Positions 3-54,249 of a stretch of DNA of 54,516 bases are shown here, piece by piece. The notes below the pieces were generated by a model. That model had not been told where the DNA came from. It ran no database searches and was given only the letters and a program-made list of their open reading frames with translations. The position numbers and the translations under genes are program-made. Source of the stretch: Alphaproteobacteria bacterium (lineage in GTDB: Bacteria > Pseudomonadota > Alphaproteobacteria > DSM-16000 > Inquilinaceae); assembly GCA_028281265.1 (NCBI GenBank), contig JANQKE010000054.1, positions 1 through 54,516 of the forward strand, read 5' to 3'. How positions within the stretch are numbered: the stretch's first letter is position 1; each line of letters begins with the position of its first letter.

Positions 3-218
3 CCGGCCCGGCGGGTGCGGAGCCGACGACACGATCGGCCGGTGTCTCGGAGGCGCTGCCGTGCCGATGCACGGCTCGGCCATGGGTACTACCATGGCGC
101 GTCCGGGCGTCCTGCGAGGCGAGCCATGGTAGTACCCATCGCCGAGCCGTGCATCGGCACGGCACCGCCTCCGAGACACCGGCCGATCGTGTCGTCGGCT
201 CCGCACCGGCCGGGCCGG
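3..218. repeat. Very long inverted repeat (about 100-bp arms)
   Basis: Positions 3-103 are complementary to 118-218, with pairs summing to 221. Only four mismatches are seen (pairs 13/208, 56/165, 81/140, 99/122), around a loop of about 14 bases. The arms are GC-rich, with no obvious coding frame or transposase. The element lies upstream of lpxC, where ftsZ is usually found in alphaproteobacteria (ftsZ itself is outside the window). It could be a small non-autonomous element, a giant terminator-like hairpin, or a fold-back assembly artefact; the four mismatches argue mildly against an exact artefact. Confidence 0.85.
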
Positions 219-1375: not shown

Positions 1376-1480
1376 CTAGATCATCCTGCGTTCAGATGGA
1401 CTCATCTGAACGCAGATAAGATGATCTATTTCAAAGAGTTAGAGCATCTTATCTGCGTCCGTTCGGACGCAGGATGCTCT
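1376..1480 (+). repeat. Family A two-hairpin repeat, copy A1
   Basis: Reference copy of family A. It begins and ends with CTAG. Hairpin 1 (1378-1427) has an outer stem AGATCATC/GATGATCT and an inner 13-bp stem CTGCGTTCAGATG/CATCTGAACGCAG around a GACT loop. A linker containing TTCAAAGAGTT follows. Hairpin 2 (1441-1480) has AGAGCATC/GATGCTCT and CTGCGTCC/GGACGCAG around GTTC. It lies between lpxC and bamD, directly abutting a second copy. Confidence 0.9.
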
Positions 1481-1552
1481 AGATCAACCTTGCGTTCAGA
1501 TATCCTCATCTGAACGCAGATAAGCTGATCGACCTTAAGGAGTTGGAGCATC
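1481..1552 (+). repeat. Family A repeat, truncated tandem copy A1b
   Basis: A second copy begins immediately after A1. Hairpin 1 is present at 1482-1530 with a slightly altered loop, then the linker CTTAAGGAGTTGGAGCATCC. The copy breaks off before the second hairpin forms. This shows that the unit can be tandem and can decay. Confidence 0.8.
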
Positions 1553-1706
1553 CAGCGAAGCGGGGCATCCGGGCGGCCGGTACCCGTCATCCCTCATGAC
1601 GGCGTCGACCATGACGATTTCGTGGCGGCTTCTGCACGAAGGCCTTTATGGGCTATATTAAGAGGGTGCGAACCCGCTTCCTCGTGCAAGGCTCCGGCGA
1701 CCGTCG

Positions 1707-2750: not shown

Positions 2751-3749
2751 ATGACATCCGGTGAGGACGGCGCAGGCAGACATCAAAGCGCTGTCAGCCG
2801 CCTGGCGCCGGCTGACATGCCAATGCCTTGCTGGGTGCTGATACCGTCGACCGGCAGACTGGTCTGGGCGAATGCCGCCGGCCGGGCCGTCTGGCAACGG
2901 GGCGATGGACGCGGGGGGCCACAGGACGAGGTCGGCGTTCGCGACAGCCAACGGACCGATCTTGTGGCGATCGCCGATCGGCTGCGCAGCGGTAAGATGG
3001 AGTTGACCGATTGGACGATCGTCAAGGACGGGATCGCGGTCACCTATTCGTGCTGCACCTGGTCAGTCGGCTGGTACGAACAACCGGCCGTGGCCTTCAT
3101 CGCGCTACCCGACCCGATCACGCCGGCGACCGCCGCACAGTTGCAGCGGGACCGCATTCTGGCGGCCGTGGCGACCAGCGCGGATCGCCTGCTGGCGCAG
3201 CCCGGAGGGCTGGTTCAGGCCGGTGATCTGGTCGCCGCCTTGGGCCAGGCCGCCGATGTGGACCGCAGCTACCTGTTCCATTTCATCCAGCGGCCGGACG
3301 GCGCGGACGACAGCACGCTCGGCATGCCCCGAATCGGGGAGTGGATCGCACGCCAGGCGTTCGAATGGTGCGCCCCCGGCATCCCGCCGGTAATCGACAA
3401 CCCCGAGCTGCAGGCCATGGACATGGTGGCGGGCGGTTTCGTGCGCTGGGTCAGCCGGTTCCGCGTCGGCCTGCCGATCGTCAGCAGCGGAGAACAGGAT
3501 ATGCCGGCCTCGGAATGGGAATTCCTGTCCGAACAGGGGATCACGGCCATCTGCGTCCAGCCGATCCGCATCGACAACCGCCTGATCGGCTTCCTGGGCT
3601 TCGACGTCGTCGCGGCCAATCGAAGCCGCCCCTTCTACGGCTGGACCGCCCATACCGTGGACGCGCTGTCGACCGGGGCCCATCTGCTGGGCGCCGCCTT
3701 CCGGATGGCTGAGCTGGACGGCCTGACCCCACTGTCGAAAGCACGATGA
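2751..3749 (+). CDS. PAS/GAF sensory protein without output domain
   Basis: A 332-residue cytoplasmic protein. Residues ~20-120 look PAS-like (WVLIPSTGRLVWANAAGRAVW). Residues ~140-325 form a GAF domain with landmarks RDRILAAVATSADRLL, VDRSYLFHF, a conserved PVIDNPELQ segment, GITAICVQPIRIDNRLIGFLGFD and a terminal helix. In other proteins this GAF type sits in front of histidine kinase, GGDEF or EAL domains; none is present, and the gene stops shortly after the GAF helix. It may act in trans or be a truncated sensor. A family B repeat begins right at its stop codon, so loss of a 3' portion is possible. Ligand unknown. Confidence 0.75.
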   Translation: MTSGEDGAGRHQSAVSRLAPADMPMPCWVLIPSTGRLVWANAAGRAVWQRGDGRGGPQDEVGVRDSQRTDLVAIADRLRSGKMELTDWTIVKDGIAVTYSCCTWSVGWYEQPAVAFIALPDPITPATAAQLQRDRILAAVATSADRLLAQPGGLVQAGDLVAALGQAADVDRSYLFHFIQRPDGADDSTLGMPRIGEWIARQAFEWCAPGIPPVIDNPELQAMDMVAGGFVRWVSRFRVGLPIVSSGEQDMPASEWEFLSEQGITAICVQPIRIDNRLIGFLGFDVVAANRSRPFYGWTAHTVDALSTGAHLLGAAFRMAELDGLTPLSKAR

Positions 3750-3866
3750 CATGACGGTGGCTCACCCTCATGTCCGAACCTTGCTCTCAAAGGTTGGGTG
3801 TCAGAGCGGGATGCAGACGCCACCCGGGGATCGTAAGAGCGATCGCGGCCAAACGCCATCGCACCC
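3747..3866 (-). repeat. Family B palindromic repeat, copy B3 (reverse, decayed)
   Basis: On the minus strand this copy contains CATCCCGCTCTG, a variable spacer, then CGGACATGAGGGTGAG and a CATGTCATC end. These match copies B1 and B2. The distal AGCGGGAT arm has changed to GTGCGATG, so the outer stem is decayed. It starts at the stop codon of the PAS/GAF gene. Confidence 0.7.
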
Positions 3867-5387: not shown

Positions 5388-5501
5388 CTGGAGCCTCCTG
5401 CGCCCGAACGGACGCAGATAAGGTCCTCCAGCTCTTTAAAGTAGATCAACAAAGTAGATCGACCCGCGTTCAGATGAGTCCATACTGAACGCGGGTCGAT
5501 C
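5388..5501 (-). repeat. Family A two-hairpin repeat, copy A2 (reverse)
   Basis: Inverted copy upstream of soxB. Hairpin 1 (5457-5501) has a perfect 17-bp stem, GATCGACCCGCGTTCAG with CTGAACGCGGGTCGATC. Compared with A1, both sides of the stem have changed together. Hairpin 2 (5388-5431) closes with CTGGAG/CTCCAG instead of AGAGCATC/GATGCTCT, again with paired changes. The linker contains a duplicated GTAGATC segment. Confidence 0.85.
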
Positions 5502-5567
5502 CGGCACCCGATCCGCGTCGCGGCCTCCCCGGCCGCGCTCCCGTCCGTTGGCACGACCTGCCGCCCG

Positions 5568-15111: not shown

Positions 15112-15238
15112 AGCGGGATGGCGCCGGGGCGATCGCGTTCGCGATCGCGCGTGACGTCCGGCATCCCGCTCCGCCTCTCGCCTTTGACAGCAGGATTGAG
15201 ACAGAAGGGCAAGTCACCCTCATGTCATCTTGCCCTGG
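15112..15238 (+). repeat. Family B palindromic repeat, copy B2
   Basis: Forward copy between the FAH and aminotransferase genes. Outer arms AGCGGGATGGCG and CATCCCGCT enclose an inner GCGATCGCG/CGCGATCGC stem-loop and CGTGACGTCCG. After a variable spacer, the 3' part carries TCACCCTCATGTCATCTTGCCC, with GGGCAAG pairing to CTTGCCC. In this copy the ACATGAGGGT arm has been replaced, leaving only its partner. Confidence 0.75.
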
Positions 15239-19720: not shown

Positions 19721-20059
19721 GCGTCTCCTCCCTGTCCGAACGGGGCATCGTTCCCGTCTCCGGAGATGCCCGAGACCGCTTTGCCAGCGGCTCTTGCCTT
19801 GATCCCGTCCCGGCCCCGGGCGACCCCGGGGCGAAGCCGCCGACGCCCGCCACCGACCGGCGCCGACCCTTCAGATCACGGGCAGGTGCGGGCCCGCGGC
19901 GATCCCGCGGACCGGCACCCGCCAACCGCTTATACCGGCTTGCGCTGAGGTGACCTCACCTCAAACCGTCTTCCGCGTCCAAGCGCCACGCGAGGCTTTG
20001 CCGCGCACGCACCCTTGCCAAGACGCAAATGAGCCTCACTCCTCGCTAACCCGGTACTC
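19721..20059. other. Gap between binding-protein and permease genes
   Basis: With the adjoining family A copy, this forms a gap of about 440 bases inside an otherwise collinear transporter operon. It contains the dyad at 19946-19963 and no supported gene. It could hold a separate promoter or a processing region setting different levels of receptor and permeases. Confidence 0.5.
19946..19963. promoter_or_regulatory. Perfect 18-bp dyad, possible operator
   Basis: TGAGGTGA and TCACCTCA form perfect 8-base arms around CC. It lies 226 bases upstream of the AglF-like start. A TTATACC stretch 14 bases before it could be part of a promoter. Its symmetry suggests a GntR- or LacI-size dimer site, but the regulator is unknown. 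Confidence 0.4.
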
Positions 20060-20163
20060 GATCAACCTGCGTTCAGATGGACTCATCCGAACGCAGGCAA
20101 GGTGATCCACTTCAAAAAGTTCGAGCATCTTATCCGCGTCGCTCCGGACGCAGGATGCTCTAG
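20060..20163 (+). repeat. Family A two-hairpin repeat, copy A3
   Basis: Hairpin 1 (20060-20107) closes with GATCAACCTGCG at one side and CGCAGG then GTGATC at the other. Hairpin 2 (20123-20160) closes GAGCATC/GATGCTC. The terminal CTAG of the repeat supplies the TAG stop codon of the minus-strand binding-protein gene (complement of 20160-20162). Confidence 0.88.
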
Positions 20164-21530
20164 AGGGCGTCCCAGGCCCGCTGGATGGCGGCGGTGACGT
20201 CCTCGGCACTTTCGCCGGAGACGTAGTCGACCATGCCGGTCCAGAACGCGCCCGCACCGATCGCCCCCGGCATCAGGTCCGACGCATCGAACCGGAAGGT
20301 GGTGGCGGCCTGCAGGATCTCCCCTTGCTTGCGCAGGGTGTCGTTGGCGTAGGCTTCGAGATTGACGTCGAGATGCGGGGTCAGGAAGCCGGACTGGGCC
20401 ATCCAGAGTTCATGGGCCAGCGGCGTGGTCAGGAACTCGAACAGCGCGCGGGTCGCTTCGCTTTCCGCGGTCATCGCCCACAGGGTGCCGGCCCCCAAGA
20501 CCGGATTGCCGAGATCTTCCCCGGCGAACGGCGGGAAGTAGAAGAAGTCGACGTCCACGCCGAGCTCCGTGCCTTCGGGGAAGAAGGACGGAATGAAGCT
20601 CGCCTGGCGGTGGAAGTAGCAGCCCGCCGGGATCTCGAACAGGCCTTGGGGGCTGTCGCGGAAGTCGATCGCGCCGACCGCCGCCCGGCCGCCATCGACG
20701 AAATCGTCGTTGCGGGCGAAGAACCCGAAGGTCTCGATCGCGTTGATCACCGCCGGATCGTTGAACGGGATCTCGTTGGCGACCCAGGCGTCGTAGACGC
20801 TCGGCGCCTGGGTGCGGAGCATGATGTCCTCGACCCAGTCGGTCGCCGGCCAGCCGGTGGCATCGCCCGAGGCGATGCCGATGCACCATGGCGTCTCGCC
20901 GTCGGCGGCGATCTCCTCGGTGACGGCGATCAGCTCTTCCATCGTGGTCGGGATGTCGTAGCCGGCGTCTTCGAGGTTCTCCGGCACGAACCAGACCAGC
21001 GATTTCAGGTCGACCTTGTAGAAGAAGCCGTAGAACGCCTCTTCGCCATCGGGGCCGGCATAGGTGCCCAGATCGACCCAGGACTGGCCGGCGGCGTAGT
21101 TGTCGAGCGTCCAGTCGCGCAGCGCGTCGCCCAGCGGCACCAGACCGCCGCGGCGCGCCTGGTCCGCGGCCAGGCCCGGCTGCGGGAACACCGCGATGTT
21201 CGGCGGCGACCCGGCCTGGATGTCGATGACGATCTGCTGCTCGAAGGAGTCGGAACCGGCGTAGTTCACGTCGGCGCCGGTGGCCGCTTCGAAATAGGCC
21301 ATCACCGAGTTGACCAGATCCCGGTCGACCCCGAGCCAGGGACCGAGGACGGAGACCTCCTCGCCGCTGAAGTCCATCTCGGTGAAGCGATCGAGATCGG
21401 ACCAGTTGAACAGGTCGCTCTCACCGATCGGGAACACCAGGTTGCCGGCATCCTGAGCCAGCGCCGGTGCGCCGGCGGCCAGGCTCAACGCCACCGCCGA
21501 AGCCAGGGTGGGAAGCTTCAACTTGATCAT
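20160..21530 (-). CDS. Sugar ABC transporter substrate-binding protein, AglE-like
   Basis: Periplasmic receptor of a carbohydrate ABC importer, 456 residues. It starts with a signal peptide (LASAVALSLAAGAPALAQ) after a strong AAGGAGGA ribosome site. The mature protein shows the family-1 solute receptor pattern VMAYFEAATGADVNYAGSDS, GSPPNIAVFPQPGLAADQAR, a GFFYKVDLKSLVWF hinge and PTTMEELIAVTEEIAADGE. Length and order fit AglE-type alpha-glucoside receptors. Its final TAG lies in a family A repeat, and another copy lies upstream, so the gene is bracketed by direct repeats about 1.75 kb apart. It is first in the minus-strand arm, before the two permeases. Confidence 0.88.
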   Translation of the reverse strand: MIKLKLPTLASAVALSLAAGAPALAQDAGNLVFPIGESDLFNWSDLDRFTEMDFSGEEVSVLGPWLGVDRDLVNSVMAYFEAATGADVNYAGSDSFEQQIVIDIQAGSPPNIAVFPQPGLAADQARRGGLVPLGDALRDWTLDNYAAGQSWVDLGTYAGPDGEEAFYGFFYKVDLKSLVWFVPENLEDAGYDIPTTMEELIAVTEEIAADGETPWCIGIASGDATGWPATDWVEDIMLRTQAPSVYDAWVANEIPFNDPAVINAIETFGFFARNDDFVDGGRAAVGAIDFRDSPQGLFEIPAGCYFHRQASFIPSFFPEGTELGVDVDFFYFPPFAGEDLGNPVLGAGTLWAMTAESEATRALFEFLTTPLAHELWMAQSGFLTPHLDVNLEAYANDTLRKQGEILQAATTFRFDASDLMPGAIGAGAFWTGMVDYVSGESAEDVTAAIQRAWDAL

Positions 21531-21911
21531 GGGATGGGGTCCTCCTTGTCGGTCTTTGCCGGGCCGCACGATGCCCTTTGGTTATGGCCGCCACCGCCGG
21601 AACCACGGGTCCCTTGCGGAGCAGCCGGGTATTTTCGTGCCATCAACCGCAGTTCCGCCCCGGTGCTCGGGACGGGGCGAGGTGCTGCCTACGATTGCCC
21701 GTCAACGGGGGAGATCGCAAGCCTCCACTGCACGGAGTAAACCGCGTGTTGACGGCATGGCAACCCGTTCGTTTCCGAAAAGCTCGTGGCACGTTTTTTT
21801 TCGTATGAAAGCCCAAGCGTTTCGGCAACGCACAATCGACGGCGCGGGCGGCGATCGCCACAAGACCCTTGACGCCCCGGATGACGGACCCCAAACGGTG
21901 CGGCGTGGCTA
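21531..21911. other. Divergent region between binding protein and beta-glucosidase
   Basis: With the following family A copy this forms a 520-base divergent region. It should contain promoters for both arms of the sugar-uptake locus. A T8 run at 21795-21802 and a TTGACG at about 21749 are visible, but no -10 of good quality accompanies the latter. No gene is supported. Confidence 0.45.
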
Positions 21912-22016
21912 AGATCAACCTGCGTTCAGATGGACTCAATCCGAACGCAGGTCAGTTGATCTCCTTCTAAAGAGTTAGAGCATCCTGCGTCCGTTCGGAC
22001 GCAGGATGCTCTCTAG
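21912..22016 (+). repeat. Family A two-hairpin repeat, copy A4
   Basis: Hairpin 1 (21912-21962) closes AGATCAAC/GTTGATCT, a paired change relative to AGATCATC/GATGATCT in A1. Hairpin 2 (21977-22012) is a perfect 16-bp stem around GTTC. CTAG ends the copy at 22013-22016, 34 bases before the beta-glucosidase start, so the hairpins would lie in its 5' leader. Confidence 0.9.
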
Positions 22017-39732: not shown

Positions 39733-39836
39733 CTAGATCATCCTGCGTTCAGATGGACTCATCTGAACGCAGATAAGATGATCTAGTTTAAAGAGTTAGA
39801 TCATCCTGCGTCCGTTCGGACGCAGGATGATCTAGG
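39733..39836 (+). repeat. Family A two-hairpin repeat, copy A5
   Basis: Hairpin 1 (39735-39784) is nearly identical to A1. Hairpin 2 (39798-39833) closes AGATCATC/GATGATCT instead of AGAGCATC/GATGCTCT, both strands changed, and forms a perfect 16-bp stem. CTAG occurs at the start, between the hairpins (39783-39786), and at the end. It lies downstream of pncB and the convergent lysE. Confidence 0.9.
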
Positions 39837-44469: not shown

Positions 44470-44506
44470 GCTAGAGCGATCGCCTCCAACGCCATCCCGC
44501 TCTCGC
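44470..44506 (-). repeat. Family B repeat remnant, copy B4 (reverse)
   Basis: On the minus strand: GAGAGCGGGATGGCGTT, GGAGGCGATCGCTCTAG. This matches the first 40 bases of B1 and then stops. The distal arm and the ACATGAGGGT part are missing. It lies in the 240-base divergent gap before the ATP-grasp fusion gene. Confidence 0.65.
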
Positions 44507-48841: not shown

Positions 48842-49276
48842 GTGCGCTACGTCTCTTGGATCATCACGGTCCCCATCATCCTGGTGATCGTTCTGTTCGC
48901 CCTGTCGAACCGGGAGACGGTGACGCTGGCCCTGTGGCCGCTGCCGTTCGTGCTCGACCTGCCGGTCTATCTCGCGGTTCTGGTCCCGGCAGCGGTCGGG
49001 TTCGTGATCGGCGGGTCCGTCGCCTGGGCGAGCGCCGCCAGAGCCCGTAAGGAGGTCAAGCGCCGCCGCAGCCAGGTCGCGGAACTCAGCGAGGAAGTGG
49101 TCAGGGCCCGCAAGCGGGACCGTGCGCTCAAGGACCGCGAGGTACGCGAGGCCGAGGCCGAGCGGCTGGCGGCCGCCAACCGCGCCGCCGCAAGCGCGGC
49201 GGCGCGCGAAGTCGTCCCCGTTCTGGACCCGTCGGATACGACGGCCGGGGAACCCGCCACGGCCGACAACCGATAG
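48842..49276 (+). CDS. lapA: LapA-family inner-membrane protein
   Basis: A small DUF1049/LapA protein (144 residues, GTG start) with two membrane segments (WIITVPIILVIVLFALSNRE and LAVLVPAAVGFVIGGSVAWAS) and a cytoplasmic, highly charged coiled coil (KEVKRRRSQVAELSEEVV and following). Relatives help lipopolysaccharide assembly or its regulation in the inner membrane. The ihfB-lapA pairing is conserved in alphaproteobacteria. Its TAG stop overlaps the TAGATC at the start of a decayed family A repeat. Confidence 0.87.
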   Translation: MRYVSWIITVPIILVIVLFALSNRETVTLALWPLPFVLDLPVYLAVLVPAAVGFVIGGSVAWASAARARKEVKRRRSQVAELSEEVVRARKRDRALKDREVREAEAERLAAANRAAASAAAREVVPVLDPSDTTAGEPATADNR

Positions 49277-49310
49277 ATCGACCTGCATTTTCAAAGAGGG
49301 AGAGCATCCC
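49274..49310 (+). repeat. Family A repeat remnant, copy A7
   Basis: TAGATCGACCTGCA matches the first arm of hairpin 1, and TTTTCAAAGAGGGAGAGCATCC matches the linker and the first arm of hairpin 2. The right half of hairpin 1 and most of hairpin 2 are deleted. The TAG is also the stop codon of lapA. Confidence 0.7.
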
Positions 49311-49341
49311 GGGACACCCTGGTGAAGCTCCACACCCGGCC

Positions 49342-53763: not shown

Positions 53764-53784
53764 AGGCGAGCCGACGCACCCAAG

Positions 53785-53912
53785 AGCGGGATGGCGTTAG
53801 GTGCGATCGCTCTCGCTGATCGCACGTGACGTCCGAATCCCGCTCTTACCGTAATCTTGGAGAGTAGGACTCGGACATGAGGGTGAGTAACCCTCATGTC
53901 ATCTTGCTCTAG
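53785..53912 (+). repeat. Family B palindromic repeat, copy B1 (best preserved)
   Basis: Outer arms AGCGGGAT (53785-53792) and ATCCCGCT enclose GTGCGATC/GATCGCAC and CGTGACGTCCG. After a ~30-base spacer with AATCTTGGAGAG comes a second hairpin, ACATGAGGGT/ACCCTCATGT, then CATCTTGCTCTAG. The end CTCTAG is shared with family A, which may reflect a common target preference. Confidence 0.85.
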
Positions 53913-54145
53913 AGGCGGATGCGTAACGGCTTGGTTAACCGGACCTGCATCCAGTCGGTCGGTCTTGGCGCCGGGGACGCCTGCGGGCCGTCGCCACAGC
54001 CGGCGGGCGGGGGCGGACACGCCGGATCCGCGACGCCCCGGGCCCCCGGAGCCGACCTCGAGACCGGGAGACGCCGGATCCGAACCTCGGGATGATTCAC
54101 GGTCCATCCGCCACCCCGGCAAGCCGCGGCGGCGCTGCGCCTTAA

Positions 54146-54249
54146 AGCCTCTTATCTGCGTCCGACCGGACGCAGGATGCTCTCACTCTTTGAAGTCGAT
54201 CAACTCATCTGCATTCAGATGAGTCCATCTGAACGCAAGGACGCTCTAG
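54146..54249 (-). repeat. Family A two-hairpin repeat, copy A6 (reverse), IS481 target
   Basis: Inverted copy. Hairpin 2 is at 54146-54183 (CTGCGTCC/GGACGCAG core with loop GACC). Hairpin 1 is at 54198-54249 with an AGTC loop on the plus strand. Its terminal CTAG (54246-54249) is the junction with the IS481 end, which starts at 54251. Confidence 0.85.

Follow-up and report, generated by a model that had tools for sequence, protein, structure and literature searches.

We find that the two-hairpin repeat dispersed through a 54,516-nt window (the whole stretch of DNA that we analyzed) is probably a non-autonomous, hairpin-forming mobile element of the CIR/RIME kind, moved by an IS630-family transposase acting in trans, with duplication of the TA of a CTAG or YTAR target. 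According to this model, the transposase would cut the element's ends, and the element would insert into the target's TA and thereby duplicate it. Because the element starts with G and ends with C, its insertion would recreate CTAG at both ends; consequently, a TAG stop codon at the target would be preserved, and the recreated ends would provide fresh targets from which tandem copies can arise. CTAG is rare in this G+C-rich genome and survives outside genes or on stop codons, and so copies would gather there harmlessly. The stems would be kept palindromic, at least in part, by template-switch correction within extruded hairpins.

The copies in the window and the parts of its first copy are collected in Table 1. 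All copies listed by the initial annotation (six full copies, a truncated tandem copy and a probable remnant) are present, the stem variants that it quoted occur in the sequence, and the genome-wide covariance-model search that it proposed, run with a model trained on 20 copies from the same genome, recovers the six full copies of the window at E-values of 4.8e-25 to 8.2e-11. The remnant at 49274 is plausible by its sequence, but its model score is non-significant (13.9 bits, on the opposite strand). The element is ~103–107 bp long in the window, and its copies fold as single-stranded DNA with z-scores of -4.7 to -13.5 versus dinucleotide shuffles; the copies at 20057 and 54142 have mismatched stems, and their pairing is imperfect. 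The truncated tandem copy has lost its GANTC and reads ATATCCTCATC. The right CTAG of the 20057 copy (20160–20163) contains the TAG stop of a minus-strand gene (20160–21530), and the TAG of the remnant (49274–49276) is the stop codon of a predicted gene (48842–49276).

Table 1. Positions of the two-hairpin element and its parts in the window
Feature	Position	Strand	Evidence and context
Full copy, 107 bp	1376..1482	+	127.9 bits, E 4.8e-25; 11 bp after lpxC, upstream of bamD
Arm 1 hairpin of the 1376 copy, stem GATCATC + CTGCGTTCAGATG	1377..1428	+	DNA fold
GACTC = GANTC (CcrM site) in the arm 1 loop of the 1376 copy	1399..1403	+	Sequence; conserved at +24 in other genera
ATAA bulge on the 3′ side of arm 1, 1376 copy	1416..1419	+	DNA fold
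Linker TTTCAAAGAGT of the 1376 copy	1429..1439	+	DNA fold; conserved to Rhizobium
Arm 2 hairpin of the 1376 copy, with 5′ TTAT bulge at 1449–1452	1440..1481	+	DNA fold
Truncated tandem copy, CTAG 1479–1482 in common with the 1376 copy	1479..1557	+	Model match 1483–1555, E 1.7e-5
Full diverged copy between divergent genes	5388..5504	-	60 bits, E 8.2e-11
Full copy	20057..20163	+	96.4 bits
Full copy between divergent genes (solute-binding protein, GH1)	21910..22014	+	86.2 bits
Full copy between convergent genes (nicotinate phosphoribosyltransferase-like, LysE family)	39733..39835	+	123.4 bits
Probable decayed remnant	49274..49318	+	Sequence only (TAGATCGACCTGC ... TTCAAAGAG..GAGAGCATCC)
Full diverged copy	54142..54249	-	61.3 bits, E 4.3e-11

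Within this genome the consensus of the element is CTAG-ATCAWC-CTGCGTTCAGATG-GACTC-ATCTGAACGCAG-ATAA-GWTGAT-CTA.TTYAAAGAKT-TAGAGCATC-TTAT-CTGCGTCCGTTCGGACGCAG-GATGCTCTAG. GACTC forms the tip of arm 1, and 4 nt (ATAA) bulge out of its 3′ strand; about half of the copies have a TTAT bulge on the 5′ side of arm 2. With the bulge of each arm turned to the linker, the element approximates its own reverse complement. The initial annotation had overlooked the GANTC in loop 1, the linker and the 4-nt bulge, as well as the overlap with stop codons.

One protein of the window has Inquilinus and other Rhodospirillales as its best named relatives, and the host, an alphaproteobacterium, probably belongs to a lineage close to Inquilinus. 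Its draft genome (4.33 Mb in 232 contigs, 99.4% complete) contains at least 150 near-full copies, all of them good matches and many of them near-identical. Many copies lie at contig ends, indicating that the assembly broke on them. In a 454.5 kb sample, composed of the window and 20 blocks of larger contigs and not chosen for the element, we counted 42 copies, decayed ones among them; at this density of 1 per 10.8 kb the whole genome would hold roughly 400. The sample bears out two earlier observations, that copies are intergenic (38 of the 42) and that CTAG is rare (~12-fold depleted, with 112 observed versus 1305 expected from base composition). The sister genus has about 15 close copies; other genera of the family have divergent copies, or none in several of them. 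The near-identity of many copies, the copies in the sister genus and the absence from several genera together point to lineage-specific amplification.

With a model that includes Rhizobiales copies, and among the best 13 candidates per genome, elements are found in at least 25 of 289 sampled alphaproteobacterial genomes, from at least 22 genera. There are 74 matches in Insolitispirillum peregrinum and 13 in Thalassobaculum litoreum, with others in Azospirillum, and plasmids yield 79 in Sinorhizobium terangae, 42 in S. fredii NGR234, 8 in Martelella and 6 in Rhizobium laguerreae, where some matches, on plasmids and elsewhere, are one copy matched on both strands. The stems of these other lineages are wholly different in sequence and keep the same register: a CTAG start, GANTC at +24, the linker, arm 2 and a TAR end. 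Alignment with the R. laguerreae, Martelella and Allorhizobium copies is nearly gap-free, and the linker and the arm register are homologous.

The window contains further repeats. A second two-arm repeat, ~130–140 bp long with CTAGAGC ends, occupies 53783–53913, and parts of it occur at 3735–3795, 15163–15236 and 44470–44503; it is laid out as CTAGAGCGGGATGGCGTT...CCGAATCCCGCTCT, a linker and GGACTCGGACATGAGGGTGA..TCATCTTGCTCTAG. Its bulges contain GANTC, and at its left end it is similar to the inverted repeat of IS630 elements from rhizobia. The contig opens (window 3–218) with two inverted 99-nt arms, 96% complementary and separated by 18 nt; this structure may be an assembly artefact or a further palindromic repeat. 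Elsewhere in the genome, another CTAG-ended repeat, starting CTAGAGCGTTTTCAGGGA, is seen at four loci (L276, L277, L281 and L283), where copies of the two-hairpin element adjoin it.

The bases of the stems change in pairs, which the initial annotation had read as selection for structure and not just copying. Between lineages, the structure is indeed conserved. When copies from Rhodospirillales-like genomes and Rhizobiales are taken together, the covariation test proposed at that stage has 0 of 500 shuffles reaching the covariation score; 93.9% of cells are paired, versus 28–35% in slid controls, and 18 pairs show two-sided changes. The copies in the window do not by themselves imply such selection, and template switching within hairpins partly explains the paired changes within this genome. 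Nine of its copies have the 4-nt bulge on both stem strands, and in all nine the two strands are exact complements, variant bases included (TCAT/ATGA, CTAT/ATAG); some other copies have no bulge on either strand. Copying of bulges as exact complements points to intra-hairpin template switching, by which paired changes arise in one mutational step. Stem mismatches show no bias of G.T over A.C (24 versus 32 cells), and hence no sign of selection on an RNA strand. As a caution for high-copy palindromes in general, paired changes in their stems can have a mutational origin.

We examined gene context with a codon-usage gene finder, using the 58 copies with both flanks. These well-flanked copies lie between tandem (27), convergent (21) or divergent (9) genes, and next to tandem genes the two orientations occur 13 and 14 times, with no strand preference. 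Around them, 23 gene ends (about 40%) overlap the element by exactly 4 nt, such that the TAG stop lies in the element's CTAG, and 8 of 13 copies in the sister genus likewise share 4 nt with a TAG stop. NCBI annotations provide six plasmid cases of this overlap (4 of 4 examined in Martelella, kdpB in R. laguerreae, and Azospirillum B510) and place no stop codon over two other R. laguerreae plasmid copies. Within the 454 kb sample, an element adjoins 8 of the 21 genes that end in CTAG, versus 9 of about 353 other stops (p = 4e-7), and stop codons are no commoner at the copies (8 of 42) than at the free non-coding CTAGs (13 of 60). Consequently, docking at stop codons follows from CTAG targeting combined with selection against insertions in genes, and not from a preference for stop codons. 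Our literature search found nothing on MITE insertion at stop codons.

Strong hairpins, often located at gene 3′ ends, and the over-representation of convergent intergenic regions (21 of 57) would also be expected of an RNA-level regulatory or 3′ UTR element, a terminator or mRNA stabilizer selected as a transcript structure. We consider this explanation unlikely. The copy at 1376, where a T-run terminator was looked for, has none; the orientations near tandem genes are equal, and nine copies separate divergent genes; the stem mismatches lack an excess of G.U over A.C; and the bias towards 3′ ends follows from CTAG at stop codons.

GANTC occupies loop 1 in 69 of 84 copies from this genome (N is C in 63 and T in 6), and in about 27 of 33 genera at least one copy has GANTC at the tip, at offset +24, where N is A, C or G. 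The model used to search these genera is mildly biased towards GANTC; copies without it (GGAAAC, GGGAACC, GGATC) were found freely, and the bias thus does not account for the pattern. The genome sample has 358 GANTC sites where 1305 are expected, a 3.6-fold depletion, but the elements hold 24 in ~4.4 kb, a 3-fold excess over other intergenic DNA. A CcrM-type methylase that includes a RAMA domain is encoded in this genome, and a RAMA-domain CcrM is present in 31 of 35 element-bearing or related genomes. CcrM presence does not predict GANTC retention among them, as all four genomes without CcrM (G127, G071, G198 and G049) have at least one GANTC loop. Among recent copies within the element's own genome, the GANTC letters are kept no better than neighboring letters.

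A host-domesticated, CcrM-dependent site, whose loop GANTC reports the methylation state to neighboring genes or to the nucleoid, would fit the depletion of GANTC in the genome sample and its density in elements, and its persistence across about 27 genera despite the turnover of the stems. Such domestication is nevertheless quite unlikely, since subfamilies with a GCCTC loop amplify (6–7 copies in this genome), several lineages lost GANTC (GGAAAC, GGGAACC) and retained CcrM, and copies have been amplified separately in each lineage. For the mobile element that we favor, GANTC is presumably kept at the family level because its methylation state affects mobility or tolerance, the least certain step of our account. 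A stronger form of this idea, which we regard as rather doubtful, is that the loop GANTC acts as a switch: hairpin extrusion or transposase access would be gated by CcrM methylation, whether full or in the hemimethylated state that immediately follows replication, so that elements move only within a cell-cycle window, and CTAG/TAG targeting lets them land harmlessly on stop codons, a strategy that alphaproteobacteria would share. If true, the combination would constitute a cell-cycle-gated, gene-sparing strategy of transposition.

Two variants of the GANTC positions were also seen in other genera. The loop has turned into GGAAAC or GGGAACC at L327–L330 (genome G279), L335–L339 (Insolitispirillum) and L315–L319 (genome G127), and a CcrM-type methylase is found in two of these three. 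At L130, L133, L237 and L232, a TGAA bulge replaces ATAA, and the stem bulges thereby gain two further GANTC sites (TGAATC/GATTCA).

An anatomy of bulged inverted arms could also be that of a REP/REPIN-type repeat, in which REP-like units are moved by a RAYT (Y1 transposase) without target duplication. As in REPINs, a bulged hairpin lies on either side and the sequence nearly equals its own reverse complement, such that the model matches both strands, and CTAG could be taken for the short foot sequence. We judge this origin distinctly improbable: a search for Y1_Tnp returned 0 matches in the 99.4% complete genome, with E. coli and Caulobacter controls positive, and the YTA/TAR variation of the ends fits a TA duplication.

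The ends of the element indicate how it may be inserted. Nearly all readable copies have YTA-G at the left end and C-TAR at the right end, with TA at the termini. Both ends are CTAG in 79 copies; those departing from CTAG are mostly YTAG on the left and CTAA or CTAT on the right. The copies with a non-CTAG end give 44 differing pairs of 4-mers and 0 identical pairs, which fits a 2-bp duplication of TA within CTAG/YTAR and not a 4-bp duplication, although plain mutation of the element-borne CTAG may lie behind the differing ends. Tandem copies have one CTAG in common. A MITE of an IS5-family transposase with a 4-bp CTAG/YTAR duplication, after the example of MITEPsy1, which is about 100 bp long and duplicates CTAG or YTAA (PMC3189936), is very improbable, as the identical 4-mers required by a 4-bp duplication occur in 0 of 44 such copies and the few DDE_Tnp_1 genes, five in the genome and rejected as parents, have no flanking inverted repeats like the element's.

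The link to IS630 rests on the target and on the outermost nucleotides. IS630 is reported to transpose preferentially to the TA in CTAG (Tenzen and Ohtsubo 1991, cited in PMC2170065). The element's own genome has two IS630-family (DDE_3) gene ends, both incomplete and at contig starts; one IS630 end reads CTA-GAGCGTTGTGATTTTAGG, and one DDE_3 gene is followed by ...CACAACGCTC-TA-G. The protein fragment of this gene matches the NCBI IS630 model, with a score that stays below the cut-off because it is a fragment, and it also matches IS630 proteins on plasmids. Where IS630 is complete, in another genome that bears the element and in Rhizobium, its ends are TTA-GAGCATGATG.. and TTA-GAGCGGGATTG.., of the TA-GAGC type. 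The right end of the element is also TA-GAGC, but beyond TA+GAGC the element and IS630 ends differ, and for that reason the IS630 helper is one that we infer. Against the IS630 model, no autonomous parent with the element's inner inverted repeat was found. A search for empty sites at orthologous genes of this genome and the sister genus recovered none, the sample containing no usable orthologue pair. Four other element-bearing genomes (G006, G009, G095 and G138) showed no DDE_3 gene, and in these the helper may differ or have been lost.

For decades, repeats of the CIR and RIME kinds have figured as elements whose mobility is unknown; CIR stands for CcrM-associated intergenic repeats (reviewed in PMC2229807; Chen and Shapiro are reported to have described them in 2003), and RIME1 is said to consist of two large palindromes in ~108 bp (by report, from Osteras in 1995). 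The initial annotation knew of no named family with this sequence, and Rfam gives no match to the element above the gathering threshold and only one tRNA in the window. Its anatomy, GANTC included, nonetheless matches the published CIR class (PMC2229807), and Rhizobiaceae commonly carry a homologue whose linker is almost identical. CIRs are ~110 bp intergenic repeats with two inverted-repeat arms, a linker, GANTC at a terminal loop, TA at their termini and an open reading frame in none of the frames (PMC2229807). The element, alphaproteobacterial like them, has every CIR feature that we tested (length, two arms with a linker, GANTC at one terminal loop, intergenic location and TA at the termini), and it belongs to the CIR kind, an assignment made on anatomy, by the published description. 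It differs from CIRs in its inferred TA duplication within CTAG and its partly inverted-repeated ends, whereas for CIRs the review gives the target duplication as unknown and reports that terminal inverted repeats are absent (PMC2229807).

The rhizobial homologues belong with the RIME-type repeats. The RIME-type repeats of Rhizobiaceae have two palindromes, and homologues among them have the linker in common with the element and, in the L214 type, GAATC in the loop; their stem sequences are wholly unlike the element's. A plasmid search with a putatively RIME1-like query gave 1307 matching places on 449 plasmids. By description, Bru-RS1/2 of Brucella are similar intergenic palindromic repeats of 103–106 bp (Halling and Bricker 1994; PMC2267715, PMC10800456).

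More distant systems share part of this design. RUP of pneumococcus resembles the element in length (107 bp), intergenic location, TA target and proposed IS630-type mobilization (PMC2229807), but forms one long stem from its two ends, lacks GANTC and is found in Firmicutes. IS630 and Tc1-mariner elements (PMC2170065) have the TA duplication proposed here for the element, the CTAG preference (IS630) and, in alphaproteobacterial copies, TA-GAGC ends, whereas the element is too short to encode a transposase and its inner end sequence is unlike theirs. REPINs and BIMEs (PMC3116915) have two inverted bulged hairpins as well, but the element's genome has no RAYT. Our analysis adds four points: a fold that is one and the same throughout the alphaproteobacteria, a TA-in-CTAG rule for the ends, the overlap with stop codons, and evidence for template switching. 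Scattered families are thereby united into one alphaproteobacterial architecture with a fixed GANTC position, and the IS630-type, TA-in-CTAG model of their mobility is testable and accounts for the copies on stop codons.
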